NCBI RefSeq assembly: GCF_003634315.1
Contig: NZ_RBXL01000001.1
Span: 4,444,501 to 4,508,500, forward strand
Direction of reading: 5' to 3'
Source of the DNA: Thiocapsa rosea
GTDB taxonomy: Bacteria; Pseudomonadota; Gammaproteobacteria; Chromatiales; Chromatiaceae
Length of the DNA stretch: 64,000 nucleotides
Below the pieces are notes generated by a model that saw only the letters and a list, made by a program, of their open reading frames with translations, made no database searches and was not told the DNA's origin. Shown here piece after piece: positions 15,120 through 35,763 of this stretch (its first letter is position 1; each line of letters starts with the position of its first letter). Made by a program: the position numbers and the translations under genes.

Positions 15120-15150
15120 GGCGATTTCGTACGCGTGCTTCTGTCATCAC

Positions 15151-17157
15151 TCAGGCCCTCGCCGCGATGCCGCCGACGGGCGCTGTGGAGCGTGAACGCG
15201 CGGTCCGATAACGCGGATCGCTGACGGCCAGCATGCCGCCAAGCGCCATCAGTATCGCGCCGAGCCAGATCCATCGGACATAGGGTTTGTAGTACAGGCG
15301 CAGCGCCCAGTCACCGTCTCCCACATGCTCGCCGAGCGAGATATAGATGTCGCGGAACAAACCCGCATCAATGGCGGCCTCGGTCATTGGCATGCCGCCG
15401 CCTAGATAGGACCGCTTCTCCGGATAGAGTTCGGTGATCTGCTTGTCGCCATCATAGACTTTGAAGTGGCCTCGGTCGGCCATGTAATTCGGTCCGGGGG
15501 CCTTTTCGGCACCAAGGAATTCGAACCGGTAGCCGGCCAATTCGTGGCTGTCCCCCGGTGACAGACGTACGTCTTCCTCAACCTCGAAATTGGACACCAT
15601 GGTCACGCCGACGATGAACACGGCGACGCCCATGTGGGCGGTCACCATGCCGTAGAAGCGACGTCCGTTGCCGCGCAGATCAGCAATCCAACCGTCGAAG
15701 CCGCGCTTGTTCTTGAGCCGGTCGCGGACGATGGTGGCATGCGAGAACAGCAACCAGGCTCCCAGCGCGACACCGATGGGTACCCAGAAATGGCCACCGC
15801 TGAACACCGGCAGCGCCGAGATTGCGAGCACGACGACGCTGAGCGCGAAGGCGATCCAGAGCGTCTTGATGAGTCGGCCGGGTTCGTCGTGCTTCCAGCG
15901 AGCCGCGGGGCCGATGCCGAGGAGGATCCCCAGGAAAGGCGCCAATGCCAAAAACATTTGATTGAACCAGGGGAATCCGACCGAGATCTTCCCCCAGCCG
16001 AAGGCCTCGTAGATCAGCGGCGCCAGGGTGCCGAACAACACCAGCACCGCAAAGGCGACGAACAGCAGATTGTTGCCGAGCAACGCGCTCTCGCGCGACA
16101 CCAGATCGAAGCGCCCGCCTTCGGATACTTCCGGCGCACGCCAGGCATAGAGTGCCAGGGAGCCGCCGACGACGATGCACAGAAAGATCAGGATGAACAG
16201 TCCGCGCTCCGGATCCGTGGCAAAGGCATGGACCGAGGTCAGTACGCCAGAGCGAACGAGAAAGGTGCCGAGCAGGCTCAAGGAGAACGCGAAGATGGCC
16301 AACAACAGGGTCCAACTCTTGAAGGCACCGCGCTTTTCGGTGACCGCCAGCGAGTGAATCAACGCGGTGCCGACGAGCCAGGGCATCAGCGATGCATTCT
16401 CGACCGGGTCCCAGAACCACCAGCCGCCCCAGCCGAGCTCGTAGTACGCCCACCAGGAGCCGAGTGCGATTCCGATGGTCAGAAACACCCAGGCCACCGT
16501 CGTCCAGGGGCGTGACCAGCGTGCCCAGGCGGCGTCGAGCTGCCCGCCGATCAGCGCTGCGATGGCGAAGGCGAAGGCCACCGAGAAGCCGACATAGCCC
16601 ATGTAGAGCATGGGCGGGTGGATGGCGAGACCGAAGTCCTGGAGCAGCGGGTTCAGGTCACGACCCTCCGGCGGTATCGGGAAATGGCGCTCGAACGGAT
16701 TGGAGGTGAACAGCATGAATAGCAGGAACCCGATCGCGATCATTCCCTGCACCGAGATCACCCGCGCCACCACTGCCAGAGGCAGATTCTTGCTGAAGGC
16801 GGCGACCGCCGCGCCCCAGGCTGCCATGAACAACACCCAAAGTAACAGCGACCCTTCATGGCCGCCCCAAACCGCTGAAACCTTATAGATCTTAGGGAGT
16901 AGGGTGTTCGAGTGCTGGGCGACATACAGCACCGAGAAGTCGCTGGCCAGAAACGCCTGTACCAGGCAGGCGAAGGCGATGATCAAAAACGTGAACTGCC
17001 CGTACGCCAGTGGACGCGCCATGGTCATCCAGGGGCGATTCCCGGTTCCGGTACTGGCCCCGTTGCCGGCGAGCGAGCCGGCCAACGGGAAGGAAGCCTG
17101 GAGGACGGCGATGACGAGCGCGAGGATCAGTGCGACATGTCCGAGTTCCGGGATCAT
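15151..17157 (-). CDS. ccmF: heme lyase subunit CcmF
   Basis: A 668-aa polytopic inner-membrane protein that ligates heme to apocytochrome c together with CcmH. The Trp-rich segment WGGWWFWDPVENASLMPWL is the CcmF/CcmC signature. Conserved His residues lie in the flanking helices, and the C-terminal periplasmic domain (RSYLGGGMPMTEAAID, DWALRLYYKP) is complete. The start ATG overlaps the stop codon of a ccmE remnant. The window has several c-type cytochrome users, including the octaheme HaoA. ccmABCD are not upstream; the cluster is cut at 17.26 kb. Confidence 0.96.
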   Translation of the reverse strand: MIPELGHVALILALVIAVLQASFPLAGSLAGNGASTGTGNRPWMTMARPLAYGQFTFLIIAFACLVQAFLASDFSVLYVAQHSNTLLPKIYKVSAVWGGHEGSLLLWVLFMAAWGAAVAAFSKNLPLAVVARVISVQGMIAIGFLLFMLFTSNPFERHFPIPPEGRDLNPLLQDFGLAIHPPMLYMGYVGFSVAFAFAIAALIGGQLDAAWARWSRPWTTVAWVFLTIGIALGSWWAYYELGWGGWWFWDPVENASLMPWLVGTALIHSLAVTEKRGAFKSWTLLLAIFAFSLSLLGTFLVRSGVLTSVHAFATDPERGLFILIFLCIVVGGSLALYAWRAPEVSEGGRFDLVSRESALLGNNLLFVAFAVLVLFGTLAPLIYEAFGWGKISVGFPWFNQMFLALAPFLGILLGIGPAARWKHDEPGRLIKTLWIAFALSVVVLAISALPVFSGGHFWVPIGVALGAWLLFSHATIVRDRLKNKRGFDGWIADLRGNGRRFYGMVTAHMGVAVFIVGVTMVSNFEVEEDVRLSPGDSHELAGYRFEFLGAEKAPGPNYMADRGHFKVYDGDKQITELYPEKRSYLGGGMPMTEAAIDAGLFRDIYISLGEHVGDGDWALRLYYKPYVRWIWLGAILMALGGMLAVSDPRYRTARSRSTAPVGGIAARA

Positions 17158-17324: not shown

Positions 17325-17560
17325 GCACGATCGATGCCATGTAATCATCAACGCAACGGATCGCTTACTGGCGGCCGGTGACGCATTGGAGGCAAGCGGC
17401 CCGAGTCGTTTCTTGAGTCGTGAGGCAGAAGCGCATCGCCGCGGTGCCGGCTCGAACGCCGAGACAAAATGGTCGCGAAATGAGTTGACCAATGGGTCAA
17501 ATTGTCGTGCCTACGTGCCCAATGTCTCGATGGCATTGCCGCGGAACGATCGCGGGCACC
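17325..17560 (+). repeat. dispersed repeat, copy A
   Basis: The first of four copies of a repeat of about 210-255 bp. The core runs from GCACGATCGATGCCATGTA to GAACGATCGCGGGCACC, and both ends are shared with copy D. By eye the copies are around 85-90% identical. All four keep an open frame reading HDRCH...TDR.LAAGDALEAS...SRFLSREAEAHRRGA...NELANGTKCRAY, but other frames are also largely open, so coding is unproven. It lies next to the truncated ccmE. Confidence 0.9.
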
Positions 17561-17726: not shown

Positions 17727-18569
17727 TCAGGTCGGCGCCGACAAGGTCTGCATCCCCGCGCTCTGATCTGTTTCGACGACCTGGATCACATCTCCGACCC
17801 GAAGTCGTCCTGTGCTCTTGGGGATCACTAGAGCGCCAAACCACACAGCGCCATCCCACTGACGATAGGATGCCAGGGTCTTCAAAGGTTCTTTGCCTTT
17901 TCTCGAAGAGCCTTCCTCGATCGTCGTAACCACGCAGCGATCACAGAGTTTCGGCACGGTGCACCTCGTCGAACCGATTGTGATCTTCTTCCAGGTGTCC
18001 TCTGCGAAAGCGTCAGCGTCCTTCACGACGACATTCGGTCGAAAGCGCGACATCGGGATCGGTTGGTCGAGACGGGCGTTGAGATCAACGAGTGATTGTT
18101 CCGATGTGAGAAGCAGGGGATACCCGTCAGCGAAGCTCACCTGATCACCTGGATCCGAACGAGCTGCATTCACTTGCCTGAGCGCGGGATCGGGCATGTA
18201 CACCAGCTCCACGTCACGCCCTAAAAATGCGCTGAACCACGAGGAACCATTGGGGAGAGTTTTCGCCTCAACGGTATCCCGCCAGACGGTGCTGATCCTG
18301 AGTTCGCCGAACAGCTCCTCGCCGGGCTCTGCGGGGAGAGCGAAGTCACCAGCGCCCGGCGCGAAGACGCGGAAGTCCTCGCCGCGGGAGTTGACCACGA
18401 CTTGGGCGAGGCGAGGTTCTTCACGACGCGTGACGAAGCGACCGGACGCATCGACGATCATGTACCGTCGGTCGTGGCGAAGCCCCCCCGGGACCACCTC
18501 AACCTCCGTGAGACCGATCCCACCGCATGACTTGATGGGATAGATGAAGAGCCCGCTGACGTGAGTCAC
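17727..18569 (-). CDS. MOSC domain protein (molybdenum cofactor-binding type)
   Basis: A 280-aa cytoplasmic protein. The N-terminal beta-barrel domain begins SGLFIYPIKSCGGIGL and contains RHDRRYMIVDASGRFVTRRE. The C-terminal MOSC domain contains SRFRPNVVV, KLCDRCVVTTI and RLRVGDVIQV. The invariant MOSC cysteine, expected to bind sulfur, is probably in CDRC. This architecture matches the YcbX/mARC-like family, which handles reductions with molybdenum cofactor and often acts on N-hydroxylated compounds. It lies between repeat copies A and B, so it may be part of the accessory region. Confidence 0.85.
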   Translation of the reverse strand: MTHVSGLFIYPIKSCGGIGLTEVEVVPGGLRHDRRYMIVDASGRFVTRREEPRLAQVVVNSRGEDFRVFAPGAGDFALPAEPGEELFGELRISTVWRDTVEAKTLPNGSSWFSAFLGRDVELVYMPDPALRQVNAARSDPGDQVSFADGYPLLLTSEQSLVDLNARLDQPIPMSRFRPNVVVKDADAFAEDTWKKITIGSTRCTVPKLCDRCVVTTIEEGSSRKGKEPLKTLASYRQWDGAVWFGALVIPKSTGRLRVGDVIQVVETDQSAGMQTLSAPT

Positions 18570-19172: not shown

Positions 19173-19180
19173 ATCCACTG

Positions 19181-19436
19181 CAATGCCACCGAGACATCGG
19201 GCACGTAAGCGCGACATTTTGTTCCATTGGCCAACTCATTTCGCGGCCATTTTGTCTCTGCGTCCGAGGCGGCACCGCGGCGATGCGCTTCTACCTCACG
19301 ACTCAAGAAACGACCCCGGTGGCTTGTCTCCAATGCGTTACCGGCCGCCAGCGAGCGATCCGTTGCGCTGATGAGTAGATGGCATCGATCGTGCTGGTGA
19401 TGAAGCGGGCCAGTCATCAATGCCAATGCAGAGTGC
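19181..19436 (-). repeat. dispersed repeat, copy B (inverted)
   Basis: Inverted relative to copies A, C and D. The core matches them throughout, and the side nearest 19436 extends further, sharing GGCATTGATGAC and adjacent bases with copy C. It marks the left edge of the A+T-richer island. It directly follows the IS1595 remnant. Confidence 0.9.
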
Positions 19437-19648: not shown

Positions 19649-20380
19649 ATGAAAAAAGAATACGCTTCCGAGTTTATCGGCACGTTCGCTCTAGTCTTTT
19701 TTGGTTGTGGCGCTGTTGCCATTAATCAATTAAGCAACGGGGCCCTTGGTTTGATTGGTATATCGGTTGTATTTGGGCTCGTTGTAATGACCATGGTTTA
19801 TACTTATGGTCATACTTCTGGTGCTCATATTAATCCTGCTGTTACTGTAGCGCTGGCTTTTGCAAAAAAATTCAATAAAGACGACGTTCTGCCTTATATT
19901 GGCGCACAATGTGCAGGAGCCATATCTGCAAGCCTACTTCATTTAATCATTCTTAAACCGCTATTCATAATGCAGAGCATCCCAGAGAAAATGTCTTACG
20001 GAGTTACCCAGCCTTTGGATGGTAGCTTCCTAACAGCTTTTACAGTCGAAGCCATTCTTACTTTCTTTTTAATGACCGTCATCCTAGGCTCCGCTGTCGA
20101 CAAAAAAGCAGCCGGGAAATTTGCCGGCATCGTAATAGGTGCAACTGTGGCATTTCTAATAATGTTCGGCGGTCCGATCACAGGTGGCTCACTGAACCCG
20201 GCAAGAAGTCTTGGCCCAGCGCTAGTCTCAGGTGAACTCTCTCACATCATTGCTTATTTAATCGGCCCGATTACCGGGTCCATTGGTGCAGTAGTTCTTT
20301 ACGCTAAATTAAACAGTTTGGATGAACAGCCGAACCAGGTGTCCCGTAATGAACCGGATCTTGAACAGTCAACGAATTAA
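19649..20380 (+). CDS. MIP-family aquaporin/glycerol facilitator
   Basis: A 243-aa inner-membrane channel with six hydrophobic segments and the two half-helix motifs SGAHINPAVT and GGSLNPARS. The second NPA is followed by the selectivity Arg. The N-terminus MKKEYASEFIGTFALVFFGCG is typical of the AqpZ side of the family. It probably conducts water and perhaps small neutral solutes such as ammonia or hydroxylamine, but the substrate cannot be read from the sequence. Its A+T-rich composition and codon use differ from the GC-rich host genes, pointing to transfer. It is the first gene after repeat copy B. Confidence 0.9.
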   Translation: MKKEYASEFIGTFALVFFGCGAVAINQLSNGALGLIGISVVFGLVVMTMVYTYGHTSGAHINPAVTVALAFAKKFNKDDVLPYIGAQCAGAISASLLHLIILKPLFIMQSIPEKMSYGVTQPLDGSFLTAFTVEAILTFFLMTVILGSAVDKKAAGKFAGIVIGATVAFLIMFGGPITGGSLNPARSLGPALVSGELSHIIAYLIGPITGSIGAVVLYAKLNSLDEQPNQVSRNEPDLEQSTN

Positions 20381-23506: not shown

Positions 23507-24358
23507 ATGCGAGTCCCTATGCGAGACCCGATGCGAGTCGGAGAGTACATGACTCAGAACCCGTTTACCGTGTCCGAGCAGACAAGCATGAAAGAGGCGG
23601 TGCTCATGCTCGACAGGCACCACATCCGTCATTTGCCGGTCACCAACGGTTCCAGGGTCGTTGGGATGGTGACGGATCGCGACATCCGTCGAGCCTCACC
23701 CTCGCTGCAGTCGGGTATCGAAGGGGACTACGAGCAGGTGCTGGCGGCCACTCCCGTGGCTCGCATCATGACCAAGGAGCCGGTGACTGTAATGACGGTG
23801 ACCGAAGACACGCCGCTGGTCGATGCGGTGCGCGCGATGGTGGAGAAGAAATTCGGAGCCCTTCCGGTGGTGAGAGGTGAGGAGCTGATCGGGATCATCA
23901 GCGAGATCGACGCGTTAAAACTTCTGGCAGAACGCAAAGAGGTTCTGCCTATGCGAATCGGAGAGTACATGATTCAGAAGCTGTTTACCGTTCCCGAAGA
24001 GGCTAGCATGAAAGAGGCGGTGTCCTTGCTCGGGAGGCACCACATCCGTCATTTGCCGGTCACCAACGGCTCCAGGCTCGTGGGGATGGTGACGGATCGC
24101 GACATCCGTCGAGCTACACCCTCGCTGCTTTCGGGTATCCGACGGGAGGACTTCGAGCAGGTGCTGGTGGCCACTTCCGTGGCTCGCATCATGACCAAGG
24201 AGCCGGTGACGGTGACCGAAGACACGCCGCTGGTCGATGCGGTGCGCGTGATGGTGGAGAAGAAATTCGGAAGCCTGCCGGTGGTTAGAGGTGAGGACCT
24301 GATCGGGATCTTCACCGACATCGACGCGTTAAAAGTCCTGTTGGAGGAACTGGAATAG
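23507..24358 (+). CDS. four-CBS-domain protein with internal tandem duplication
   Basis: A 283-aa cytoplasmic protein made of two nearly identical halves, each a pair of CBS domains (half 1 about residues 1-146, half 2 about 147-283). Each half has GEYM, HHIRHLPVTNGSR, GMVTDRDIRRA, VARIMTKEPVTV, EDTPLVDAVR and MVEKKFG.LPVVRGE. CBS pairs bind adenosyl nucleotides and usually act as sensors. The start ATG 23507 has AGAGG 8 nt upstream. The same AAAGAGG...CCTATGCGA stretch recurs inside the gene at about 23936, so the duplicated unit included the original ribosome site. It is a stand-alone gene between IS91-type fragments. Confidence 0.9.
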   Translation: MRVPMRDPMRVGEYMTQNPFTVSEQTSMKEAVLMLDRHHIRHLPVTNGSRVVGMVTDRDIRRASPSLQSGIEGDYEQVLAATPVARIMTKEPVTVMTVTEDTPLVDAVRAMVEKKFGALPVVRGEELIGIISEIDALKLLAERKEVLPMRIGEYMIQKLFTVPEEASMKEAVSLLGRHHIRHLPVTNGSRLVGMVTDRDIRRATPSLLSGIRREDFEQVLVATSVARIMTKEPVTVTEDTPLVDAVRVMVEKKFGSLPVVRGEDLIGIFTDIDALKVLLEELE

Positions 24359-24790: not shown

Positions 24791-25759
24791 TTAGTTGATA
24801 ATTTGATACAGGCTTAAATAGCCGCCCCAATCGGATTTAAAGACCAATCTAAAATCAGCAAGTTCTTTTTCGGCTGCGGTGGTAAAAGGAAGCAAGCTGG
24901 CGAGTAAAGAATCTTCAAAATCCGGATCGATGATCCTCCAGGCACGAACAAAGTTCTCATCGATAGGCTGTAGCATATAACTGCCGGTTCCTTCTCCTTC
25001 ACGAGCCCATTCTCTAACCTGTTTGATTTGACCGTGCAGATCGGAATCGGTCGAAAACAAGCGCGTCTCTAAGGGCAGACCCTGGCCGGCTAAAAGACTG
25101 ATTTCTTGGATATGTGCCATATCATCGGCACTCATCAAGATATAGTTATCACCTGCATCCGTATACAACTGGCTCAAGCACGACGTAGCATCTCTGGCCT
25201 TACCGATTAAACATTGCGCGAAGATAGTCAATTGTTCTTGCTGAGAAAACCCATTACCGATCTTTTGCCAAAATAACTTTTCTTCTGAATTTGCGAATGC
25301 CTTCTCGATAGGTTGTTCTGAGACAGCCATTCTTCCGGTAAATAGGTGCAGCCGTTGAGCGTTATCCCAGTAAGTAATAAATCTATCCGAGTCTTTGGTG
25401 TGTTTTTTAACGGCAGCAGAGAGGAACCGCCACTTTTCTTGTCGGTATTGATGATGTTTCTTATTATCTATTGTATTCGTTTCTTTTTCATGTTGTCTAG
25501 GGAGAGGATAGACGATGGCTCGACGTCTTTCATCATCGACTTGGTATTGCGCCACAAACATTTCGTATTCTTTTTCTTTTGGGCTTTTGATCAAAATTTT
25601 CTCTAGAACATCGATAGGGAAGTGACTATTTATGTCTTGATATTCAGATGCTTCAACGGCTGATATGGAATAACTGAGCTGCTTATTGTTTTCATTACTA
25701 AAGGCTACTGAAGTAGTGGTTAATGCGAGAAGCAGCAATGAGATTCTAAGCCGAGACAT
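24791..25759 (-). CDS. haoB: hydroxylamine oxidation protein HaoB
   Basis: A 322-aa protein with an N-terminal signal peptide (MSRLRISLLLLALTTTSVAFS), so probably periplasmic. It is assigned to HaoB mainly by its place directly after haoA and by general character (SYSISAVEASEYQDINSHFP, FAQCLIGKARDATSC, RAWRIIDPDFEDSLLASLLP). The function of HaoB is not established; it accompanies haoA in ammonia oxidisers and some methanotrophs. The gene is A+T-rich, unlike the host. An intrinsic terminator lies between haoA and this gene, so expression should depend on readthrough or an internal promoter. An IS91 fragment lies immediately downstream. Confidence 0.7.
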   Translation of the reverse strand: MSRLRISLLLLALTTTSVAFSNENNKQLSYSISAVEASEYQDINSHFPIDVLEKILIKSPKEKEYEMFVAQYQVDDERRRAIVYPLPRQHEKETNTIDNKKHHQYRQEKWRFLSAAVKKHTKDSDRFITYWDNAQRLHLFTGRMAVSEQPIEKAFANSEEKLFWQKIGNGFSQQEQLTIFAQCLIGKARDATSCLSQLYTDAGDNYILMSADDMAHIQEISLLAGQGLPLETRLFSTDSDLHGQIKQVREWAREGEGTGSYMLQPIDENFVRAWRIIDPDFEDSLLASLLPFTTAAEKELADFRLVFKSDWGGYLSLYQIIN

Positions 25760-25802
25760 GTTGTAACTCCGAATAGAAATTTAACGGATGGGAGCAGGGG
25801 GT

Positions 25803-25840
25803 AAAAAACCCTATGCCGACCTGATTGTTTCGGCATAGGG
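25803..25840 (-). terminator. rho-independent terminator after haoA
   Basis: On the minus strand CCCTATGCCGA pairs perfectly with TCGGCATAGGG (11 bp, 10-nt loop) and is followed by TTTTTT. It begins 15 bp past the haoA stop and lies before haoB, so it may set a lower level of haoB than haoA. Confidence 0.85.
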
Positions 25841-25855
25841 TCAATAAAGGCTAGA

Positions 25856-27394
25856 CTACTTGCTGAGTTCCTCTACCTTTTTCTTCAACTCAGCCAATTC
25901 TCGGATCTGGGTATTTTGATCTTGGATCTCCGTATAACGACGCATCAACCTGGCCCAACCTTCAGAGTAGGTGAAGCCGCCTGGGTTAACATGCATTAAG
26001 CCTTTGTAATGCTTAATCAGATCATGCTCCCACATCTCGGCATGGGTACGGTCAACCAAGCTAGGGTTATTACCTTGGGCGAAGAACAGTCCAAAGAAGT
26101 CACCAGGAGCATCTTCTGCAGGCTCTGGTGGGGCAGGGCGGTTGGTCTTTTGACCTACTAGCAAGCCATCATCATACAGTTTCTGCACGATCTGCTTGGC
26201 TTCTTGTTCCACCTCAAGACCTTGAATGATGCCTTTGTCTGCCGTATCCAGCCAGGCTTTGGCAAAGCGTGCAGAGTGACATTGAGCACAGCTATCGACC
26301 CACGCTTGTTTGCGTTCTTCAAACCAAGGCTGGTCTAGGTTATCCGCAATGGCGGGGGTTGGATTAAAGGCCCAACGTACTTTACGGACCAAGTTGTGCG
26401 AATATTCACCTTTGTATTCAAAGTGACAAGTAGCGCAGGTAGGTGCAGTGTAATTGCCTTCGGTGAGGTGATCTTTCAATTGAACTTCAAAGTTCCATTT
26501 GTCTTTACCCATTGTCTCGTAGATCACGCCGTGCTTAGACAACATGTAGTTTTCAAACTCGTTGTGATCGACACCGTTGTGGCAGGTGGCACAGGCTTCG
26601 GGCTTACGGGCCTCGGCGGCAGAAAAGGTATGGCGAGTATGGCAGCCATCGCATTTGTTTTGTTGGTAGTGACACATATCACAACCTTGGGCCACTTCGC
26701 GTTGTGACATACCGGCCCAGATGGCAGTTTCCACATTGGCCTTCCAGTCCATGGCATGGGATGGATGTCCATCCGGCCACTGCCCTTGCGGCCATTTCTG
26801 CTCTTTTTCCGCTTCAGCCTCGGCAAACTCTTGTACGTGACAGGCGCCACACATGGCTCGGTCCGGCATCTTCAGCTCTGTTTCGTGCTGCATGCTGGTT
26901 TTACCGACCCCAGCATGACAATCGATACAACTTACACTCTCAAGTTGCTTGCCGGCTGCCAGGACACCACGGGATTGTAATTCTTTCTCAATCTCTTCGA
27001 GCTTGGCCTTCTTATAGAAACGCGGGTCATCATCTTTTAAACTGCGTATGTCATCCAGATTAGCATGGCCGCTGTCTTTCCAGGCATGCACCCAACCAGG
27101 GTTAATGGCTAGGTGACATTCGACACATTCTTCCGCATTGAAGTTGCCTATTAAGGTACCTGGCGGCTCATAGAAACTCACCGGATTCCAGTATTGTTGG
27201 ATCGGGATGGGTTCCCAGAGGTCGGCGTATTTTCCTTTGCCGGGATGATCAGCGTAATACTTATCTTTTAATGCTTCATAGTCATAAGCAGCAGAACTGG
27301 AAACAGCGGTGACTACGGGCAACTGGCGAGTATGAACAATATAACTGGACGCACCGATGAGTATAAACAACAGAATGGCGAATCGAGCTTTCAT
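25856..27394 (-). CDS. haoA: octaheme hydroxylamine oxidoreductase HaoA
   Basis: A 512-aa secreted multiheme cytochrome c. An N-terminal signal or anchor (about residues 5-20) is followed by eight CxxCH heme motifs: CVECH, CIDCH, CGACH, CDMCH, CDGCH, CATCH, CATCH and CAQCH. A Tyr in GGFTYSEGW (about residue 476) lies where hydroxylamine oxidoreductases carry the Tyr that crosslinks to the P460 heme, which favours oxidation of hydroxylamine over reductive relatives. A C-terminal coiled coil (ELAELKKKVEELSK) ends it. Electrons would need a c-type acceptor, and no c554/cM552 genes are adjacent. A+T-rich composition suggests transfer. Its maturation requires the Ccm system. Confidence 0.93.
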   Translation of the reverse strand: MKARFAILLFILIGASSYIVHTRQLPVVTAVSSSAAYDYEALKDKYYADHPGKGKYADLWEPIPIQQYWNPVSFYEPPGTLIGNFNAEECVECHLAINPGWVHAWKDSGHANLDDIRSLKDDDPRFYKKAKLEEIEKELQSRGVLAAGKQLESVSCIDCHAGVGKTSMQHETELKMPDRAMCGACHVQEFAEAEAEKEQKWPQGQWPDGHPSHAMDWKANVETAIWAGMSQREVAQGCDMCHYQQNKCDGCHTRHTFSAAEARKPEACATCHNGVDHNEFENYMLSKHGVIYETMGKDKWNFEVQLKDHLTEGNYTAPTCATCHFEYKGEYSHNLVRKVRWAFNPTPAIADNLDQPWFEERKQAWVDSCAQCHSARFAKAWLDTADKGIIQGLEVEQEAKQIVQKLYDDGLLVGQKTNRPAPPEPAEDAPGDFFGLFFAQGNNPSLVDRTHAEMWEHDLIKHYKGLMHVNPGGFTYSEGWARLMRRYTEIQDQNTQIRELAELKKKVEELSK

Positions 27395-27499
27395 GTTACT
27401 AACTCCTCTTAACGTTATTGATTGTTTTGGCCAAGCCCAACCGGTATGTGACGTCAGTCATCAATATCCGGTTCTTGTTCGTCGCCGCAGGAACCCGGT

Positions 27500-28942
27500 T
27501 CAATATTTCACCTCGGTCGGTAGTATTATCGCCTTAGCAGGGTGTCCGGGAGGACTAGACGAGTTCACATTATCGCCCGGATCGGCGCGGTCACCCTGAT
27601 TCATCGCTGGCTCGTAGGTTCCGGCAACATCACCACATGCGCTATAGCCGACCAGTAGGCCATCGTCACTCCACCATTCGTCCACGACACCCTGGTCGGA
27701 GCTATGCACACGGCGAATGCTACTGCCCGCACGGCTCGAGCGCTCCGGCGGCACCGATTTGATCTGACAGGTGCGAGACTTAACAAGAACCATCGGCATA
27801 CGGGACTCGAAGCGCCGCTTGCCTTCACCATAAAGCTGATCCACGATCACGGCAGCCTGGCGATTGATAGGCTCGACGAATGAAAAGACCTGTCCCTTGT
27901 GTTCAGCGCAATCACCAAGGGCGTAGATATCCGGGTCGCTGGTACGCATGGCTTCATCGACATTGATACCCTTGCCAACATCAAGGCCCGCTCGGGCCGC
28001 AAGCTCAATGTTGGGCTTCAGGCCGATCGCCGAGATCACGACGTCGCGCTCCATGGTGCGCCCATCCTCGAACTGGATCTGCAACCCACCGTCTTCCTTG
28101 GCGACATCGTTCATGGTGGTGCCGAGGAAGAACGCGATCCCGTTCTGCACGTATCGATCTTGAACGTAGGTGGAAACACCCTCGGACACCACGGCCGACA
28201 GCAAATACGGGGCTCTATCATTGATCGCGACTTCATGCCCGGCACGAGCAAGGTGATCGCCCAATTCACATCCGATCAAGCCGGCACCTAGAATCAGTAC
28301 TCGCTTGTTACCGCTGTTGAGCAATTCCGTCAGTGCCTCATAGTGATCCAGGTCATTCAGCTGGTGGATATGCTGCTGGATACGACGATCGTAGAGACGC
28401 AAAGGCACCGCGCCGGTCGCAAGCACCAACTTGGCGTACTCGACCTTGCCTTTGTCGGTTAACAAACGTTTTTTATTACGATCGAGACCAATCACCTGGG
28501 TACGTGCACGCAAGTCCACGTCCAGCAACTGCGCGCGATCCGGCCCTTTGGCAATGATCAGATCGGCACGTGACTTGCTGGTAACGGACACGGATAGATG
28601 CGGCTTGTAGTAGTAGTCACCATCGTCTTTCGTGACGATGGTGATCGGGCCTTCGGCACCATTCTGGCGCAGTTGCTCGGCGATGTTCCATCCGCTGATC
28701 CCAGCGCCAACAATCACAATGGGATCGCCTTCCTGGTCGTTGTTGCGTTCGGCTGCGGCTTGCGCATACTCAGACAAGCCGGCAAATTCAAAGCTTTCGC
28801 GAGGATCACCACAAACCGAACAAAACCATTCGGGCGGCAGGTCATCAAATCGAGTCCCGGGGGCTACTCCGTGAATCGGGTCACCCATAGCTTCGTCGTA
28901 GATATGCGCGCAAGTGCTACAACGATAGCGTTTTAAACTCAT
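27500..28942 (-). CDS. rubredoxin-fused FAD/NAD(P)-dependent oxidoreductase
   Basis: A 480-aa cytoplasmic electron carrier/reductase. The N-terminal rubredoxin domain (residues 1-52) has CSTC and CSVC iron ligands and the usual GDPIHGVAPGTRFDDLPPEW segment. The rest is a pyridine-nucleotide-disulfide-type flavoprotein with FAD motif GAGISG, NAD motif GAGLIG and IYALGDCAE. It probably takes NAD(P)H electrons through FAD to rubredoxin and then to an oxygenase. The AurF-like diiron enzyme in the same cluster is the obvious partner. The start ATG 28942 has GGAGAAGGAAG just upstream. I recall a comparable reductase in the dnf cluster of Alcaligenes, but did not verify this. Confidence 0.85.
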   Translation of the reverse strand: MSLKRYRCSTCAHIYDEAMGDPIHGVAPGTRFDDLPPEWFCSVCGDPRESFEFAGLSEYAQAAAERNNDQEGDPIVIVGAGISGWNIAEQLRQNGAEGPITIVTKDDGDYYYKPHLSVSVTSKSRADLIIAKGPDRAQLLDVDLRARTQVIGLDRNKKRLLTDKGKVEYAKLVLATGAVPLRLYDRRIQQHIHQLNDLDHYEALTELLNSGNKRVLILGAGLIGCELGDHLARAGHEVAINDRAPYLLSAVVSEGVSTYVQDRYVQNGIAFFLGTTMNDVAKEDGGLQIQFEDGRTMERDVVISAIGLKPNIELAARAGLDVGKGINVDEAMRTSDPDIYALGDCAEHKGQVFSFVEPINRQAAVIVDQLYGEGKRRFESRMPMVLVKSRTCQIKSVPPERSSRAGSSIRRVHSSDQGVVDEWWSDDGLLVGYSACGDVAGTYEPAMNQGDRADPGDNVNSSSPPGHPAKAIILPTEVKY

Positions 28943-29090
28943 CTTCCTTCTCCCCGGCATCAATGTGCTGATCTAAATGATCCTTAACCGCGCCTCTAAC
29001 AGCGGCGACCGATATTGGTCATTGCGACACGAGAGCCACAGCCAACAGCCCCTCACCACCGGTAGAACCCCGGTGCGATTTCTCAGCGGC

Positions 29091-29816
29091 TCATGCCGCT
29101 GCCTCGACGGAACCCTGAGCAGCTAGAGACACCAGCCACTTCGCCCATACCTGCTTGGCCGGGCCTTGTAGGTTTGGCCCATAGCGCTGGCCATCTTCCC
29201 GTAGTCCAGGAACCGTCAACCCTTCTACTGACGCAATTTCGTGCGCATGACCGAGGTACCAGCTTTCCAAAGCCTCGGCTTCAACTTCCAAATGGAATTG
29301 CAGCGCCAGCACATTGTCTCTGTAGCTGAACGCCTGATTTGGATAGACCGCCGACGACGCCAGCCGGGTTGCACCGGCGGGCAGATCAAAGGTGTCTCCG
29401 TGCCAATGCAGAACTTCCAATGCGTCCTGTAGGGGCGACAAGACGTTCCCCTCCACATCGCCGTGAATTTCCAACGGCGCCCAACCGATTTCCTTGGTTC
29501 CACCGGGATACACATCCGCGCCCAGCGCTCTGGCAATCAACTGACAGCCCAGGCAGATACCCAGTACAGGCCGATTGCGCGCGATGCGATCGCGGATCAG
29601 TTCCAGTTCGGTGTCCAGATACGGATAGGCGTCTGTTTCGTAGACACCGATCGGGCCGCCCAGGACGACCAGCAAATCCGGATCGTCTTTACTGATCGGG
29701 TTAAGATCCTCAACGCCCGCCATGAAGGTGCTAATGGCATAGCCGTGTTTGCTTAACGCCAGCTCCAGATTGCCCAAATGTTCAAAAGCAATATGCTGGA
29801 CCACATGTGCGAGCAT
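29091..29816 (-). CDS. class I glutamine amidotransferase-like protein
   Basis: A 241-aa cytoplasmic protein of the GMP-synthase-like GATase family, which splits glutamine and delivers ammonia to an acceptor. The nucleophile Cys lies in GICLGCQ, the oxyanion region in VVLGGPIGVYE, and the His-Glu pair in LQFHLEVEAE. The start ATG 29816 has GGGGGAG about 8 nt upstream; the longer frame begins in unrelated sequence. No synthetase domain is fused. Its neighbours (diiron N-oxygenase, rubredoxin reductase) suggest that released ammonia could be channelled to N-oxidation, or that it removes a glutamyl group from an intermediate. Confidence 0.87.
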   Translation of the reverse strand: MLAHVVQHIAFEHLGNLELALSKHGYAISTFMAGVEDLNPISKDDPDLLVVLGGPIGVYETDAYPYLDTELELIRDRIARNRPVLGICLGCQLIARALGADVYPGGTKEIGWAPLEIHGDVEGNVLSPLQDALEVLHWHGDTFDLPAGATRLASSAVYPNQAFSYRDNVLALQFHLEVEAEALESWYLGHAHEIASVEGLTVPGLREDGQRYGPNLQGPAKQVWAKWLVSLAAQGSVEAAA

Positions 29817-29965
29817 TGTGACTCCCCCTCTCTTGTGTACCGACATTCGGCGGCCACTCGTATTGCTTATAAGCGGTTCATAAGCGACGTCAGCATTCCA
29901 GTTCATTCTCCCACTCTCCCCAGCCCCTCTACCGGCAGGGGAGAGGGGCTAAGATGGATTACTGT

Positions 29966-30955
29966 TTATTGAACTGTTACTTTTTCAAGCAATCCTTCCG
30001 CCTGGAAGGAATCACAACCTTCCGGCGTGTCCAGCAAGCCAGTTTCTTCGGCAAGCTCGATCAGCTCCGAGAAGTCGACACGGAACAGGGCAACTTCGGC
30101 TTCCGCCCGGATATCACCAATCACCTCTTTGGTGTGCTCATAGTCGAGCTGTTGCAGGATGGTTTCCCAAACGCTCAGCTCCTGACTGGCGAACCAACGC
30201 ATCGGACGCGGCAGCATCTGCGCGAAGAACGCAAGCTCACGCGGCGTCAGGTGGCGGACGATTTCCTTGGTCAGGTGACGGAAGATGCCGCTGTGCGCCA
30301 ATTCATCTTTCCGGTGCGCATCGGTGGTGATTCGGTTGATCGGCTGCACACCATCGGCGTCGGACAGCAGGCTCAGATAGTCGCTGATAAACACCTCGGA
30401 CACGATGCAGGCGCACGCACGAACGATCTTCTTTTGCCAGTTCTCGGAATACTTCGCCGCCTCAAGCTCGATCTTGTTAACCAAGTCGAAGCTAGGCAAA
30501 CGCAGGTCCAGCAAGCCACGCTGTGTTCGGGCCATACGTGCGGTATTGATCACCATCAACACATGGTAGGCCTCATCCGTCAGAGTTTGGGCGGCCAGCC
30601 ATTTGATGGTTTCGTCATGCGTACCCGGCAGAGTTCCGTAGATGATTTCATTGCAAATGGGCGAGATGATTTTCGTTTCAATATCGATGGTTTTCTCGTT
30701 ATAGGCGATCCAGCCGGATGACAGAATCTTGGTGCGCATCTCGTCGCCAAGCTCGCCGTAACGCGGATGCTGGTGAAACGGGATCAACCGATCCAGGAAG
30801 TCGTCGTACACATCGCTGTACATCATTTCGACTTCGAACTCTTCGTTCTTCACCTGTGCACGTTCTTTCCACACCTCGCCCATTTTGGCAAGAGCGGCAA
30901 TACTATTATTGCCGTAGGCGGCGGGTGCATGAGAAGAAAGGGTTTGGGTTTGCAT
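29966..30955 (-). CDS. AurF-family diiron N-oxygenase-like protein
   Basis: A 329-aa helical protein resembling p-aminobenzoate N-oxygenase AurF and relatives, which use a dimetal site and oxygen to oxidise amino nitrogen. The pattern of two Glu-containing helices each followed by DExxH is seen: EKTIDIETKIISPICNE then TDEAYH, and later RACACIVSEVFISDY then KDELAH. The start ATG 30955 has GGAGAG upstream. It is the first gene of the minus-strand cluster running through to haoA. Family members make hydroxylamines, nitroso or nitro compounds. One relative (DnfA, from memory) oxidises hydroxylamine in direct ammonia oxidation. The substrate is not deducible here. Confidence 0.85.
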   Translation of the reverse strand: MQTQTLSSHAPAAYGNNSIAALAKMGEVWKERAQVKNEEFEVEMMYSDVYDDFLDRLIPFHQHPRYGELGDEMRTKILSSGWIAYNEKTIDIETKIISPICNEIIYGTLPGTHDETIKWLAAQTLTDEAYHVLMVINTARMARTQRGLLDLRLPSFDLVNKIELEAAKYSENWQKKIVRACACIVSEVFISDYLSLLSDADGVQPINRITTDAHRKDELAHSGIFRHLTKEIVRHLTPRELAFFAQMLPRPMRWFASQELSVWETILQQLDYEHTKEVIGDIRAEAEVALFRVDFSELIELAEETGLLDTPEGCDSFQAEGLLEKVTVQ

Positions 30956-31151: not shown

Positions 31152-31382
31152 GATGCACTCCGCATAGGCATTGATGACCGGCGCGCTACATCATGACGCA
31201 CGATCGATGCCATGTACTCATCGGCGCATCGGATCGGCCGCTTGCGGCCGGTGACGCATTGGAGGCAAGCCGCCAGAGTCGGTTCATGAGTCGTGAGGCA
31301 GAAGCGCATCGCCGCGGTGCCGTCTCGAACGCCGAGACAGAATGTCCGCGAAATGAGTTGGCCAATGGAACAAAATGTCGCG
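31152..31382 (+). repeat. dispersed repeat, copy C
   Basis: Matches the other copies from GCACGATCGATGCCATGTAC to AACAAAATGTCGCG and then diverges, so about 40 bp of the right end seen in A and D are missing. The left side extends to GATGCACTCCGCATAGG, shared in part with copy B. It marks the boundary between the nitrogen-redox cluster and the oxidase cluster. Confidence 0.9.
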
Positions 31383-31595
31383 TGTTGTGGGTCACTTTGT
31401 TTCACCGTCCAATTCCCGAATTATTTCGTGCGGAATGCTCGCGGCTTTCCCGCACTGATTGCCCCGGTGGCGCAGTGTTGGCAGGTGGAGCAGTGCGAGG
31501 AGGGCGAAGGCGGCGTGTCGGGCGCGTTGCGGCGGTGTTCAACGGGCCCGGGTCGGGCACCTGTGGGGAGGGTGCCCGGCGGGCGCGGGTCGGTT

Positions 31596-32149: not shown

Positions 32150-32740
32150 TCATTCCAGCCGGGATCGATCCGTCTTGCGAAAGGGCCCGAACAGACCCCA
32201 GACGGCGGCTAGGATCGCGCCGATCAATGCAAGGCCCAGTAGCAGCATCCCGGTGCGTTGTTGGTCGTCTATGAGATAGTTGCTGCACAACTGCACCGGG
32301 CTGATCTGGAAGACCCAGCCCAGACGCACCAGCATGGCCCAGCCCTCCATGAGTATGACGCCGCGCCCCACCGGTCCCAGTCGACGCCAGCTCCATGTCA
32401 AGGTGGCGCCCGTGAGCGGCACGGTGAGGATTTTGAGCAGCCGGGCACCCGGATCGAAGGTTGCGAGATCCATGTTGAGCGGGAGCATCCAGTAGATCAT
32501 CCAACCGCTGCCCAGCACCAGGGCGACTCCTCCGCTGGGATCCGCACGTTCCAGCCACGCCTGCAGTTGCTCGGAGCGATAGACCCAGTAACCGCCGCAG
32601 AAGGCCAGCAGCGGCATCTGCAACAAGAGGTGTGCCTGCATGGACGCTTCGAAGAGTCTCGCCGTGACGGGAATCAGCCCGGCGACACAGAACGCCAGGG
32701 TGAGTGCGAGCGGCCACTGCCGCCACCGTTCACCCGTCAT
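32150..32740 (-). CDS. oxidase-cluster membrane protein of unknown function
   Basis: A 196-aa integral membrane protein with about five hydrophobic segments (for example WPLALTLAFCVAGLIPV, GVALVLGSGWMIYWMLPL and MLLLGLALIGAILAAVWGLF). I cannot name the family. It overlaps the end of the Sco gene by 11 nt and is the last gene of a four-gene run with oxidase subunits II and I, so a role in oxidase assembly is likely, perhaps analogous to CtaG-type copper proteins. No clear copper motif is present apart from scattered Met. Confidence 0.6.
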   Translation of the reverse strand: MTGERWRQWPLALTLAFCVAGLIPVTARLFEASMQAHLLLQMPLLAFCGGYWVYRSEQLQAWLERADPSGGVALVLGSGWMIYWMLPLNMDLATFDPGARLLKILTVPLTGATLTWSWRRLGPVGRGVILMEGWAMLVRLGWVFQISPVQLCSNYLIDDQQRTGMLLLGLALIGAILAAVWGLFGPFRKTDRSRLE

Positions 32741-33329
32741 CGGTGATCAAGCCTTCGAGCGCGGGGTCGGTCCAAGCGCTGATGCGGACCAAGTGGCCGT
32801 CTCGAATCCAATGGAGCGAGTCGCTGTGCGCGAAACCGCCGAAGCGGTCGGGGATGACGCGCAATCCAGTCTCGCGGATCAGGGTGCTTAGGATTTGCTC
32901 GTCGGCCGGGCGCGCGATGGTCCAGGACGTGCGCGTGCCGCCGAAGCGTTTTCGATACTCGGCGAGACGCTCGGGCGTGTCGTGCGCGGGTTCGATGCTT
33001 ACGGACAGCAGGCGAACCCGGTTCGAGCCAGCGGCTTCCATCGCGCGCTGGAGCTGACTGTAACGCACCCCGAGTGCTCCGCAGACCGAGGTGCAGCGGG
33101 TGAAGATGAAACTGACGAGCAGGACCTGATCGTCCCAGTCCGACAGCCGGACGAGGTTGCCCTGGTCGTCCTGCAATTGCCAGTCGGAGACCGGCGGTTG
33201 TTGGCGCATGGCCTGGGTCTGGCGCAAGGTCTCATAGGTGAATGCGGAGAGACCGGCGGTGCTATGCCAGAGCAGCCCTGCCATCAGGCACAGGGCCAAC
33301 GCCACGGAGAGCAGGGTGCGCGGACTCAT
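32730..33329 (-). CDS. Sco1/SenC-family protein of the oxidase cluster
   Basis: A 199-aa membrane-anchored thioredoxin-fold protein (anchor LLSVALALCLMAGLLWHS). The copper or thiol motif is CTSVC in FIFTRCTSVCGALG; LLSVSIEPAHDTPERLAEY is the family block, and a His occurs in GGFAHSDSLHWI. Its ATG overlaps the stop of subunit I by 4 nt. It is only distantly similar to the other Sco at 20.5 kb. It should service the CuA site of the adjacent subunit II. Confidence 0.88.
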   Translation of the reverse strand: MSPRTLLSVALALCLMAGLLWHSTAGLSAFTYETLRQTQAMRQQPPVSDWQLQDDQGNLVRLSDWDDQVLLVSFIFTRCTSVCGALGVRYSQLQRAMEAAGSNRVRLLSVSIEPAHDTPERLAEYRKRFGGTRTSWTIARPADEQILSTLIRETGLRVIPDRFGGFAHSDSLHWIRDGHLVRISAWTDPALEGLITDDG

Positions 33330-34801
33330 GCGCGTGCGCCGATTCCTGTGCTTGCCAGCCTCGCGCGCGGCAGCTTCTGCAGAATCGGCAAGGCGATCAT
33401 CAGGGTGCCGATCAGGACGATGCCGCCGGACAGGGCGCCGACGTTGCCGAGCCACTGCCAGCTCTCCTCGTGCACGGCGAAGCGACGCGGCACCGAGAGC
33501 GCCCCCGACACCAGAAAACTCAGGCAGAGCAGGGTACCGCCAGTGGCATAGACCGCCACCGCAACAAGCCCGGTACGTCCCTGCTGGCCGTTGGCGCATA
33601 GGTAGCTCGCGAATCCGAGCACCATCGGCAAGACGCCTAGCAGCAGATAGAAATGGAAATGGCCCGGCACCCAGAGGGTATTGTGCATCACCAGATTGAC
33701 GTGAATCATGCCGTCGATCACCGCCGGGATGATTCCCGCCGCCCAGCCGAACAGTGACAGCACCAGCAGACTTGAGGCGGCGTCCCAGCGAATGCCCGAT
33801 CGGTAGACGAGCATCAGCCCCCCGAAGGCGGTCATCACTAGGACGGGGATGCCGCTGGCATAGGACACGATTTGTCCCATGATCGCCATCCAGGGCGGCA
33901 TCGCGAAATCCATCAGCAAATGATGGGGGTAGACCGCCAGCACCATCAGTGTCACGGCGAGCCATGCCGCGAGAAAGGGTCGCGAGACACGCCATGGGCG
34001 TCGAGCATACAGAGGCAGGATTTCGTAGACCGCGATCACGGCCGAATAGATCGTCGCGTTGATGAACACATGGCCGAAGAAGAAGATAAGATTCTTCATT
34101 AGCAGCGCGTCGGGGGCGAGCGCCGGGTAGATCAGATGTAGCATCGTCATGATCAAAACGATCGCGCCCACGGCAATGCCGGCGACATTGACGATGAGCA
34201 CCATAGCGCTGGCCACGACCGTGGGCGAGTGCGTTGCGTCGATCGGCTCCCGGCCGAACAGCATCGGCAACCCCAAGGCACGGGCAATGCTGCCGTAGCG
34301 ACGCACGATGGCGACGCCCATGTCGAGGTAGACCAACAGAAAGGCGACCCCCAGCAGCAGCAGGCCGCCGACGAAGGTCAGTGCCGCGCCCTTGCTCCAT
34401 TGTCCCAGCGAGAAGGCGGGCAGGGGGTAGAGGAAGGTCCACGCGGCGGCGAAATGACCGAGCAGGATGGAGCCGACGATCATGGCGACGGCGACCAGGG
34501 ACAAGAGCAGCGTGGCTAGAAAGATCTTTGGATTCAGTTGCACGTGCTGACTCAAGAAGTACCAATTGACGGCGAGGGCAGCCAATCCAGCCGTGCCCAC
34601 CATCCCCGCGCCGTGCAAGGTCATCAACTGATAGAAGACATCGGGGGCGAGTGTGAGCATCGCGGCGCCCTGTGCCGCCCGCATCAGCACGCCGACCAGC
34701 ATCAGCCCGGCGAAGACCAGCAGACCGATGCCGAGGTAGAGTTTGACGACCGGCGCGCGCTGCGCTTCGGGAGTTGCATATCCTAGTTCAGTCGTGGTCA
34801 T
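33326..34801 (-). CDS. heme-copper oxidase subunit I
   Basis: A 491-aa polytopic catalytic subunit of a terminal oxidase. Heme and copper ligands are visible: TLHGAGMV (low-spin heme His), FGHVFINATIY (first CuB His), YPHHLLMD (CuB His pair) and HNTLWVPGHFHFYLLLG (heme His residues). The helix VI motif of most oxidases is GHPEVY or GHPIVY, with the CuB-crosslinked Tyr four residues after His. Here that position is Asn and the nearest Tyr is eight residues on, so this is a non-A-type, possibly unusual oxidase. It starts 1 bp after subunit II. Confidence 0.88.
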   Translation of the reverse strand: MTTTELGYATPEAQRAPVVKLYLGIGLLVFAGLMLVGVLMRAAQGAAMLTLAPDVFYQLMTLHGAGMVGTAGLAALAVNWYFLSQHVQLNPKIFLATLLLSLVAVAMIVGSILLGHFAAAWTFLYPLPAFSLGQWSKGAALTFVGGLLLLGVAFLLVYLDMGVAIVRRYGSIARALGLPMLFGREPIDATHSPTVVASAMVLIVNVAGIAVGAIVLIMTMLHLIYPALAPDALLMKNLIFFFGHVFINATIYSAVIAVYEILPLYARRPWRVSRPFLAAWLAVTLMVLAVYPHHLLMDFAMPPWMAIMGQIVSYASGIPVLVMTAFGGLMLVYRSGIRWDAASSLLVLSLFGWAAGIIPAVIDGMIHVNLVMHNTLWVPGHFHFYLLLGVLPMVLGFASYLCANGQQGRTGLVAVAVYATGGTLLCLSFLVSGALSVPRRFAVHEESWQWLGNVGALSGGIVLIGTLMIALPILQKLPRARLASTGIGARA

Positions 34802-34802
34802 T

Positions 34803-35327
34803 TCAGTGCTTCTCCGTCACGGCGATCTCTGTAACCATGGCATGGTGCGCCACACCGCAATACTCGAGACAGAGCACGCGATACTTGCCGGCGTGCTCGA
34901 AGGTAACGTCGAGGTCGTTGAAATAGCCCGGCATCGCCTGTGTTTGTGCGACGATCTTGTCGTCCGGTCCGTAGATCGCGAATCCGTGATTCACGTCTTG
35001 CGAGGTCACGCGAAACCTGACAGGCTCCCCGGCTTCGACGCTGTTCGATGCGAGTTCCCATGACCATTGCCGACCGACCGCCTGGATTATCCTGGGCGAC
35101 TCGGCGCTGGATGCCTGCAGTGGAAACGGGATGAGCGACCAGACGCTCACCAGCACCCCGGCGGCGCACAGGCCTATCATCCACCAGCGCCGAATGATGT
35201 AGCCACGTGTGGAAATGCCGCCATAGTCCTCGTCCCGTGGTCCTGAATTCAGAACGACAAAGGCGAATACCGCGGCAATGAACACCATGCCAAGAAGACT
35301 TATCAGGAGGATACTGATATGCATCAT
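34803..35327 (-). CDS. heme-copper oxidase subunit II with CuA site
   Basis: A 174-aa protein with two N-terminal membrane spans (HISILLISLLGMVFIAAVFAF and WWMIGLCAAGVLVSVWSLI) and a periplasmic cupredoxin domain. CuA ligands are complete: His in DVNHGFAIY and CLEYCGVAHHAM, so it should accept electrons from a c-type cytochrome or cupredoxin. The start is taken as ATG 35327 (a second ATG follows at once). The gene is first in the oxidase run, and repeat copy D lies about 180 bp upstream. The Sco and PCuAC proteins in the window would be its copper suppliers. Confidence 0.9.
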   Translation of the reverse strand: MMHISILLISLLGMVFIAAVFAFVVLNSGPRDEDYGGISTRGYIIRRWWMIGLCAAGVLVSVWSLIPFPLQASSAESPRIIQAVGRQWSWELASNSVEAGEPVRFRVTSQDVNHGFAIYGPDDKIVAQTQAMPGYFNDLDVTFEHAGKYRVLCLEYCGVAHHAMVTEIAVTEKH

Positions 35328-35507: not shown

Positions 35508-35763
35508 GATGCATTGATCATCACGACGCACGATCGATGCCATGTACTCATCAGCGCAACGGATCGCTCGCTGGCGGCCGGTGACGCATTGAATGCAAGC
35601 CGCCGGAGTCGTTTCTTGAGTCGTCAGGCAGAAGGGCATCGCCGCGGCGCCGCCTCGAACGACGAGACACAATGGACGCGAAATGAGTTGGCCAATGGGA
35701 CAAAATGTCGCGCCTACGTACCCAATGTCTCGGTGGCATTGCCGTTGAACGATCGCGGGCACC
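35508..35763 (+). repeat. dispersed repeat, copy D
   Basis: The most complete copy together with A. It begins near GATGCATTGATCATCACGAC and ends GAACGATCGCGGGCACC. It closes the right side of the oxidase cluster and of the accessory region. The remaining 196 bp up to the MOSC gene hold no recognised gene. Confidence 0.9.

Follow-up and report, generated by a model that had tools for sequence, protein, structure and literature searches.

A five-gene cluster in Thiocapsa rosea that places an AurF-family oxygenase and an amidotransferase next to haoAB: a candidate source of hydroxylamine independent of ammonia monooxygenase

The cluster and its closest described systems

Direct ammonia oxidation (Dirammox) in Alcaligenes is encoded by the genes dnfT1RT2ABCD. 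According to excerpts of the literature on Alcaligenes dnfABC (PMC9478400, PMC11440038, PMC9136411, PMC12575085, PMC11160463), DnfC is able to hydrolyse glutamate gamma-hydroxamate, and strains carrying dnfABC required glutamine synthetase to form hydroxylamine from ammonia, not from glutamine (PMC11440038). For the hydroxylation of glutamine by DnfAB, an excerpt of PMC11160463 refers to in vitro work; it also states that no protein like hydroxylamine oxidoreductase (HAO) was found in A. faecalis, in which hydroxylamine builds up and its decay seems to be abiotic. The Dnf product and the purpose of hydroxylamine in organisms without ammonia monooxygenase (AMO) are disputed. Here we describe a locus in a 64,000-nucleotide stretch of Thiocapsa rosea DNA (the window; contig NZ_RBXL01000001.1, positions 4,444,501 to 4,508,500). 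At positions 24791-30955 of the window, five successive minus-strand open reading frames (ORFs) encode an AurF-like oxygenase, a class I glutamine amidotransferase (GATase), a rubredoxin reductase, HaoA and HaoB, separated by gaps of 59-149 nt that depend on the choice of start codon. We consider it fairly probable that the cluster is a Dnf-like generator of hydroxylamine joined to a hydroxylamine oxidase, an AMO-free route feeding HaoA being the best-supported reading. A true hydroxylamine oxidoreductase here directly follows a Dnf-like module, which is evidence of an independent kind that hydroxylamine is the product, and the cluster would represent a nitrification route from organic nitrogen that is missed by amoA-based surveys.

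As in Dirammox, a diiron oxygenase, an NAD(P)H reductase and an amidotransferase of the DnfC clade adjoin one another, and the spacing of the diiron ligands is equal. In contrast, DnfB is an FNR-like reductase with a 2Fe-2S domain encoded between A and C, whereas the window has a rubredoxin and a pyridine-nucleotide reductase after the GATase; its oxygenase is 27% identical and of a separate lineage, and haoAB is attached. The resemblance to dnf that an earlier note on this DNA had pointed out holds for the GATase; the oxygenase is no close DnfA, and the reductase is of another type. With the haoA-haoB pair of ammonia oxidisers and methanotrophs, the window shares eight CxxCH motifs, the P460 tyrosine and an adjoining HaoB. 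Unlike in that pair, AmoA was not detected, HaoA lacks the C-terminal membrane tail, and the genes are linked to those for the AurF-like protein, the GATase and the rubredoxin reductase. The trichostatin proteins TsnB7 and TsnB9 combine an AurF homolog with an amidotransferase as well; TsnB9 is AsnB-like, whereas the window has a class I GATase and no nonribosomal peptide or polyketide synthase (NRPS/PKS) domain in the ORFs scanned. For trichostatin, N-hydroxylation of the glutamine amide is reported, the AurF homolog yielding glutamate monohydroxamate and its partner acting as a hydroxyamidotransferase (excerpt of PMC11160463). The arylamine N-oxygenases CmlI and AurF share fold and diiron ligands with the window's oxygenase, and differ from it in sequence (28-29% identity) and in lying on the other side of a 100/99 branch. 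The earlier note knew of no description of the five-gene combination, and none was found among the matches listed in the open-licence literature (titles and abstract starts); other publications could describe it.

Table 1. Coordinates of the five-gene cluster and of neighbouring features in the window
Feature	Position	Strand	Basis
AurF-family diiron N-oxygenase, 329 aa (DnfA-like by context only)	29966-30955	-	PF11583, ligands, AlphaFold model, trees
Class I glutamine amidotransferase, AurF-linked/DnfC clade, 241 aa from likely start	29091-29816 (ORF listed from 29906)	-	PF00117, tree, model
Rubredoxin fused to FAD/NAD(P) rubredoxin-type reductase	27500-28963 (likely ATG 28942)	-	PF00301 + PF07992
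HaoA, octaheme P460-type hydroxylamine oxidoreductase, 512 aa	25856-27394	-	PF13447, residues, tree
HaoB, 322 aa	24791-25759	-	TIGR04392 below cut-off, synteny
Heme-copper oxidase cluster	32150-35300	-	Cox2 34803-35300, Cox1 33326-34801, SCO 32730-33329 by Pfam; membrane protein 32150-32740
Cytochrome c maturation genes	13276-17157	-	CcmF 15151-17157, CcmH 14631-15119, CcmI 13276-14634; Pfam
Aquaporin (MIP)	19649-20380	+	PF00230
MOSC gene	17727-18569		MOSC_N + MOSC; YcbX/mARC-like by architecture
Four-CBS-domain protein	23507-24358		internal duplication
Dispersed repeat, ~230 nt, four copies	17325-17560, 19174-19401, 31198-31433, 35528-35763	both	88-90% identical where aligned

The five proteins and their conservation

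The earlier note had read the five minus-strand genes as an AurF-family protein with two DExxH motifs, a class I GATase, a rubredoxin-FAD-NAD reductase, an eight-CxxCH HaoA with the P460 tyrosine, and HaoB, and all of these assignments are borne out. HaoA matches PF13447 (Multi-haem_cyto) with 495.7 bits and N. europaea HAO (4fas) with 593 bits. Its CxxCH motifs lie at 90, 156, 182, 238, 248, 268, 320, and 369, Y476 aligns with Tyr467 of the N. europaea enzyme, and D267 and H268 are kept. The P460 tyrosine marks the oxidative direction of HAO. In the HaoA tree (21 rows), the window's protein groups with that of genome G440 (100/100), then with those of H. glycolicum, GSL.Bin27, and T. minor (100/100), and at the next level with G250 and two AmoA/PmoA-positive genomes (8 rows, 100/100), while five weaker homologs without the tyrosine form a separate side. 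HaoB scored 138.7 bits against TIGR04392, below the cut-off of 200; its identity is backed by synteny, and the syntenic relatives are 73-84% identical.

The AurF-like protein scored 153.8 bits against PF11583 (cut-off 29.6). Its DExxH motifs are D127-H131 and D217-H221, and 7 of 7 diiron ligands are present (E93, E128, H131, E187, H214, E218, H221) with the spacing of the published DnfA (E88...H216). CmlI and AurF share these ligands, so that they do not discriminate DnfA from CmlI/AurF. The AlphaFold model (pLDDT 86.6) has CmlI and AurF as its best matches, with CmlI 5hyh on top (TM 0.92 of target). Alcaligenes DnfA was represented by five dnfABC-type loci (L077, L078, L087, L088, L089), which belong to the same family or order as Aquabacterium soli; exact DnfA residue numbering occurs in four of them and deviates in L088. 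The oxygenase tree held 52 rows: 49 of 69 matched loci together with the window, CmlI, and AurF. The other loci were additional copies of genes already included, and the weak homolog L084 was omitted. From a second tree, seven long rows were removed deliberately. CmlI/AurF and the NRPS-linked side split from the window's oxygenase at 100/99 in both trees, so the clustering with secondary-metabolite enzymes that the earlier note had named as a danger to its idea was not seen for this protein. In the tree without the long rows, a branch with 95/88 sets a 31-row group that includes the window's oxygenase apart from the rows of dnfABC, marine dnf-like, and CmlI type; long branches meet where the window's lineage joins, as the tool warned. 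Membership in DnfA was rejected on the 27% identity and this separate group, and membership in the CmlI/AurF arylamine N-oxygenases on the 100/99 split. Searched without mismatch against the collected loci, the published dnfA primers, as given in the excerpt of PMC9136411, found none (dnfA-upF 0/78 and 0/89; gene part of dnfA-F 0/85).

The GATase matches PF00117 and keeps Cys118, His205, and Glu207. Its start is probably ATG 29816, preceded by a GGGGGAG stretch, and not the listed ATG 29906. The GATase tree (43 rows) was built from chosen loci, with duplicates and paralogs without a locus omitted (rows L034 and L139 are identical). On one side, at 96/96, stand 34 AurF-linked rows, including the dnfABC-linked ones and PDB 9xfs; the clade also contains L137 and L138, further copies with neighbours not read. 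The window's five rows form their own group among the 34 and are not nested in the dnfABC rows. Seven paralogs, from six same-genus genomes without AurF and from G250, stand apart at 97/99, and L136 and 1o1y are also outside. The best fold match of the AlphaFold model (pLDDT 87.8) is 8khs, DnfC of Alcaligenes sp. (TM 0.96 of target, rmsd 1.3 A, 45% identity). By clade the protein would be of DnfC type, with predicted hydrolysis of glutamine and glutamate gamma-hydroxamate. A second, partial copy in T. minor (L137; G546 contig 387) is 86-87% identical to the window's and lies on a different contig.

The reductase ORF joins a rubredoxin domain (PF00301) to FAD/NAD(P) domains (PF07992), with rubredoxin reductase 2v3a as its best PDB sequence match; ATG 28942 is a likelier start than the listed TTG. 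Separate rubredoxin frames directly follow the oxygenase in L024, L025, L030, L031, and L045; in L028 such a frame comes after the GATase, and in the Chromatiaceae the rubredoxin is fused to the reductase. Since rubredoxin frames adjoin AurF elsewhere, this fusion is the predicted electron donor of the oxygenase.

Scanning genome contigs with a profile from a three-sequence AurF alignment gave 39 AurF-like loci. All five genes occur in identical order in the window, H. glycolicum DSM 11080 (L010), GSL.Bin27 (L011), and T. minor DSM 11518 (L013), so the five families are neighbours in other genomes, the first check that the earlier note had proposed. The cluster is conserved in several purple sulfur bacteria. 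Identities to the window in the other three are 90-91, 84-90, 85-89, 84-85, and 73-79% from AurF to HaoB, respectively, and dN/dS of the five genes is 0.11-0.33 (two comparisons, against L010 and L013). From the shared order in four genomes and the dN/dS values, the juxtaposition is more than chance. Among 210 genomes of the family, HaoA was found in 8 (E up to 1e-60) and AurF in 5; both occur in 4, adjacent in each. The sample has 10 further genomes from the genus of the window, and neither gene was found in them. G440 carries haoAB on a contig that ends within haoA, and AurF and GATase were found nowhere else in its genome. Class-wide, HaoA (E up to 1e-40) was found in 13 of 258 genomes, five being of the 35-37% type, and AurF matched in 3 of 369 (G000, the window genome; G162; and weakly G063). 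Within 38 searched genomes of AurF-like loci (L016 not included), HaoA (E up to 1e-20) occurred in three, H. glycolicum, GSL.Bin27, and T. minor. G250, with a HaoA of 74% identity, was considered as a further case and rejected, as the 12 kb around its haoAB gave no AurF, GATase, or rubredoxin-reductase match.

Twelve of the AurF-like loci are cyanobacterial (L014-L023, L026, L046; Nostoc, Moorena, Okeania, Calothrix, Leptolyngbya, and others), with oxygenases 43-51% identical to the window's. The GATase family accompanies 11 of the 12, a Dnf-like module in cyanobacteria, and no HaoA was found in the 11 of these genomes that were searched (L016 not included).

The earlier note had seen no amoCAB in the window. 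For AmoA (PF02461) this extends to the whole genome (G000) and to 8 other Chromatiaceae, none of which gave a match; AmoB and AmoC were not searched. As a positive control, the search of 16 genomes matched two, G170 and G282, both HaoA-bearing.

A candidate route to hydroxylamine and its rivals

In the proposed route, NAD(P)H electrons would pass in the cytoplasm through the rubredoxin-reductase fusion to the AurF-like diiron enzyme, which would hydroxylate the side-chain amide nitrogen of glutamine with O2 to form glutamate gamma-hydroxamate. Hydrolysis of this product by the DnfC-type amidotransferase would release glutamate and free hydroxylamine, the predicted shared intermediate. Hydroxylamine would then reach the periplasm, for which the aquaporin nearby is a possible channel (a guess), and there HaoA, aided by HaoB, would oxidise it to NO (or nitrite). 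Electrons from HaoA would go to c-type cytochromes, perhaps to the neighbouring heme-copper oxidase. Every catalytic step here is predicted. The earlier note had offered a non-AMO route from amine- or glutamine-derived nitrogen to HaoA or, instead, a paired detoxification system; the first stands as the best-supported reading, its substrate, product, and flux being predicted, and the second stays as a rival.

Several lines of evidence support the route to HaoA. Among them are the order of the five genes kept in four genomes with dN/dS of 0.11-0.33, the seven diiron ligands spaced as in DnfA, and the published dependence of dnfABC strains on glutamine synthetase when ammonia is the nitrogen source for hydroxylamine. 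The GATase belongs to an AurF-linked clade with the dnfABC GATases and has DnfC as its nearest fold; because this partner is shared and a reductase adjoins, a DnfA-like working is proposed for the oxygenase. Amidotransferases accompany most AurF-like loci, as in the trichostatin precedent. The GATase family lies in the fetched flanks (within 10 kb) of 29 of 39 loci, and an AsnB-type amidotransferase takes its place at 6 (L033, L036, L037, L038, L039, L048). Neither occurs at four (L012, L014, L030, L040), of which L030 is cut by the contig end. With its P460 tyrosine, HaoA falls beside the HaoA of AmoA/PmoA-positive genomes and apart from the tyrosine-less homologs. As AmoA was not detected, hydroxylamine must come from elsewhere than AMO. 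A YiiM-like MOSC gene lies near 14 of 39 AurF-like loci (L010, L011, L024, L027-L029, L031, L032, L041-L045, L047), which we count in favour. MOSC enzymes of this kind reduce N-hydroxylated compounds; in E. coli, YiiM and YcbX do so with an N-hydroxylated base (excerpt of PMC3831636). The named strains H. glycolicum and T. minor make the reading testable. The hosts of the AsnB-type loci are four Planctomycetota metagenome-assembled genomes (MAGs), one Legionella MAG, and one Burkholderiales MAG.

A number of observations weigh against this route. Identity of the oxygenase is 27% to the nearest dnfABC rows (24-28% across the five) and 29% to CmlI (28-29% to CmlI/AurF). It forms a third lineage beside DnfA and CmlI/AurF in the trees, its sisterhood to DnfA depending on the root, and its substrate may therefore differ. 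Hydroxylamine was bound by purified DnfA and glutamine was not, and it is disputed whether glutamine is oxidised directly (excerpt of PMC11440038). In E. coli, DnfAB alone already made some hydroxylamine (excerpt of PMC11160463), so the GATase is not strictly needed. No MOSC gene was found in the stretches read of the five dnfABC-type loci. By eye, the first three proteins have no signal peptide, and HaoA and HaoB begin with a signal-like stretch; the generating and oxidising enzymes thus lie in different compartments, and hydroxylamine must cross the membrane. The need for O2 in the first step is awkward for an anaerobic phototroph and requires micro-oxic life, which the neighbouring oxidase allows and does not prove. 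The 15 HaoA genomes tested for AmoA comprise 2 with AmoA, 4 with AurF, and 9 with neither (8 with complete or unread surroundings, and G440 with its contig cut in haoA), so that HaoA alone does not imply the pathway. Divergence is uneven as well: dS is 0.70-0.83 for HaoA, 0.17-0.48 for AurF, GATase, and reductase, and 0.34 and 0.77 for HaoB, which lies between the two or near HaoA (comparisons against L010 and L013), and the halves of the cluster may not always have travelled together. In the Chromatiales genome G557 (L012), AurF stands alone with no GATase or HaoA match. The HaoA of G440 (genus code g16, containing Halochromatium) resembles the window's protein (94% identity) more than the HaoA proteins of its own genus (88-89%), and a transfer inside the family is suggested by this. 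Copies of the dispersed repeat of Table 1, possibly a MITE-like element, stand on both sides of the cluster; one lies just upstream of AurF in the window, and T. minor has a copy in the corresponding place (L013 96-270, 82%). The unit has moved, and it may be mosaic.

Complete AMO-free nitrification in phototrophic sulfur bacteria, with assimilated ammonia as electron donor at low oxygen and electrons conserved through the oxidase/cytochrome c island or the photosynthetic chain, is a further and rather doubtful step beyond the route to HaoA.

The rival that survives best, although we judge it unlikely, is detoxification of hydroxylamine arising as a side product of nitrite reduction or from neighbours. 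The AurF-like enzyme, acting like DnfA to N2, and HaoA would both consume it, and the GATase would hydrolyse gamma-glutamyl hydroxamate made when glutamine synthetase takes up hydroxylamine. In vitro, DnfA oxidises hydroxylamine as far as N2, and no binding of ammonia was seen (excerpt of PMC9478400), and HaoA occurs without AurF and AmoA in G468, G469, G527, and further genomes, as this explanation would have it. Two unrelated hydroxylamine oxidisers and a glutaminase-type enzyme in one unit would, however, be redundant, HaoA has no need of an NADH reductase, and deletion of dnfC nearly abolished hydroxylamine production in Alcaligenes (excerpt of PMC11160463).

A biosynthetic N-oxygenase module whose product is a metabolite of hydroxamate, nitro, or azoxy type, HaoA serving to remove hydroxylamine that leaks out, is clearly improbable. 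AurF-family relatives elsewhere adjoin NRPS/PKS genes, and a secondary-metabolism role has been argued for the Alcaligenes system (excerpt of PMC11160463). Yet a Pfam scan of 34 ORFs (part of the window's ORFs) found no NRPS/PKS domain, the flanks hold respiratory and cytochrome c genes, and the oxygenase stands apart from the NRPS-linked and CmlI/AurF types.

That a Dnf-like module and haoAB came to lie side by side by chance or mobility, with no common pathway, is very unlikely: unequal dS, the repeat, the lone AurF of G557, and the HaoA of G440 would fit it, whereas the order kept in four genomes and the constant adjacency in the four family genomes with both genes (hypergeometric 4.4e-6 on the assumption, which does not hold, of independent genomes) speak against it.

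Surroundings of the cluster

The gene order in L010 and L011 equals that of the window, from Cox2-Cox1-SCO-membrane protein through the five genes to CcmF-CcmH-CcmI, with two differences. In the window CcmF starts 7.6 kb past HaoB, with CBS, YggS-like, PCuAC-like, SCO, aquaporin, and MOSC genes in between; in L010 and L011 it follows HaoB directly. The aquaporin gene lies beyond HaoB in the window and upstream of AurF in L010 and L011. It occurs near AurF in 4 of 39 loci (L010, L011, L042, L047). L013 is a short contig with a CBS gene downstream, as in the window. The four-CBS-domain protein beyond HaoB is likewise found in T. minor and G440.

Promoter- and terminator-like sites in the window were not more frequent than in shuffled sequence, and a search for tRNA genes in the window found none. 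No relatives of GlyA, MocR, class III aminotransferase, or FNR/2Fe-2S proteins were found in the window.

An Rrf2-family regulator with NsrR-like cysteines by eye lies with the aquaporin upstream of the five genes in L010 (7566-7976) and L011 (from 7345), and the same Rrf2 family also occurs near AurF in L027 and L045. Two further proteins accompany AurF, one conserved and of ~450 aa (14 of 39 loci), the other secreted-looking and of ~246 aa (10 of 39); the single member of each that was scanned gave no Pfam match. The loci with these companions are L015, L017, L021, L022, L024, L027, L032, L035, L041-L045, and L047.

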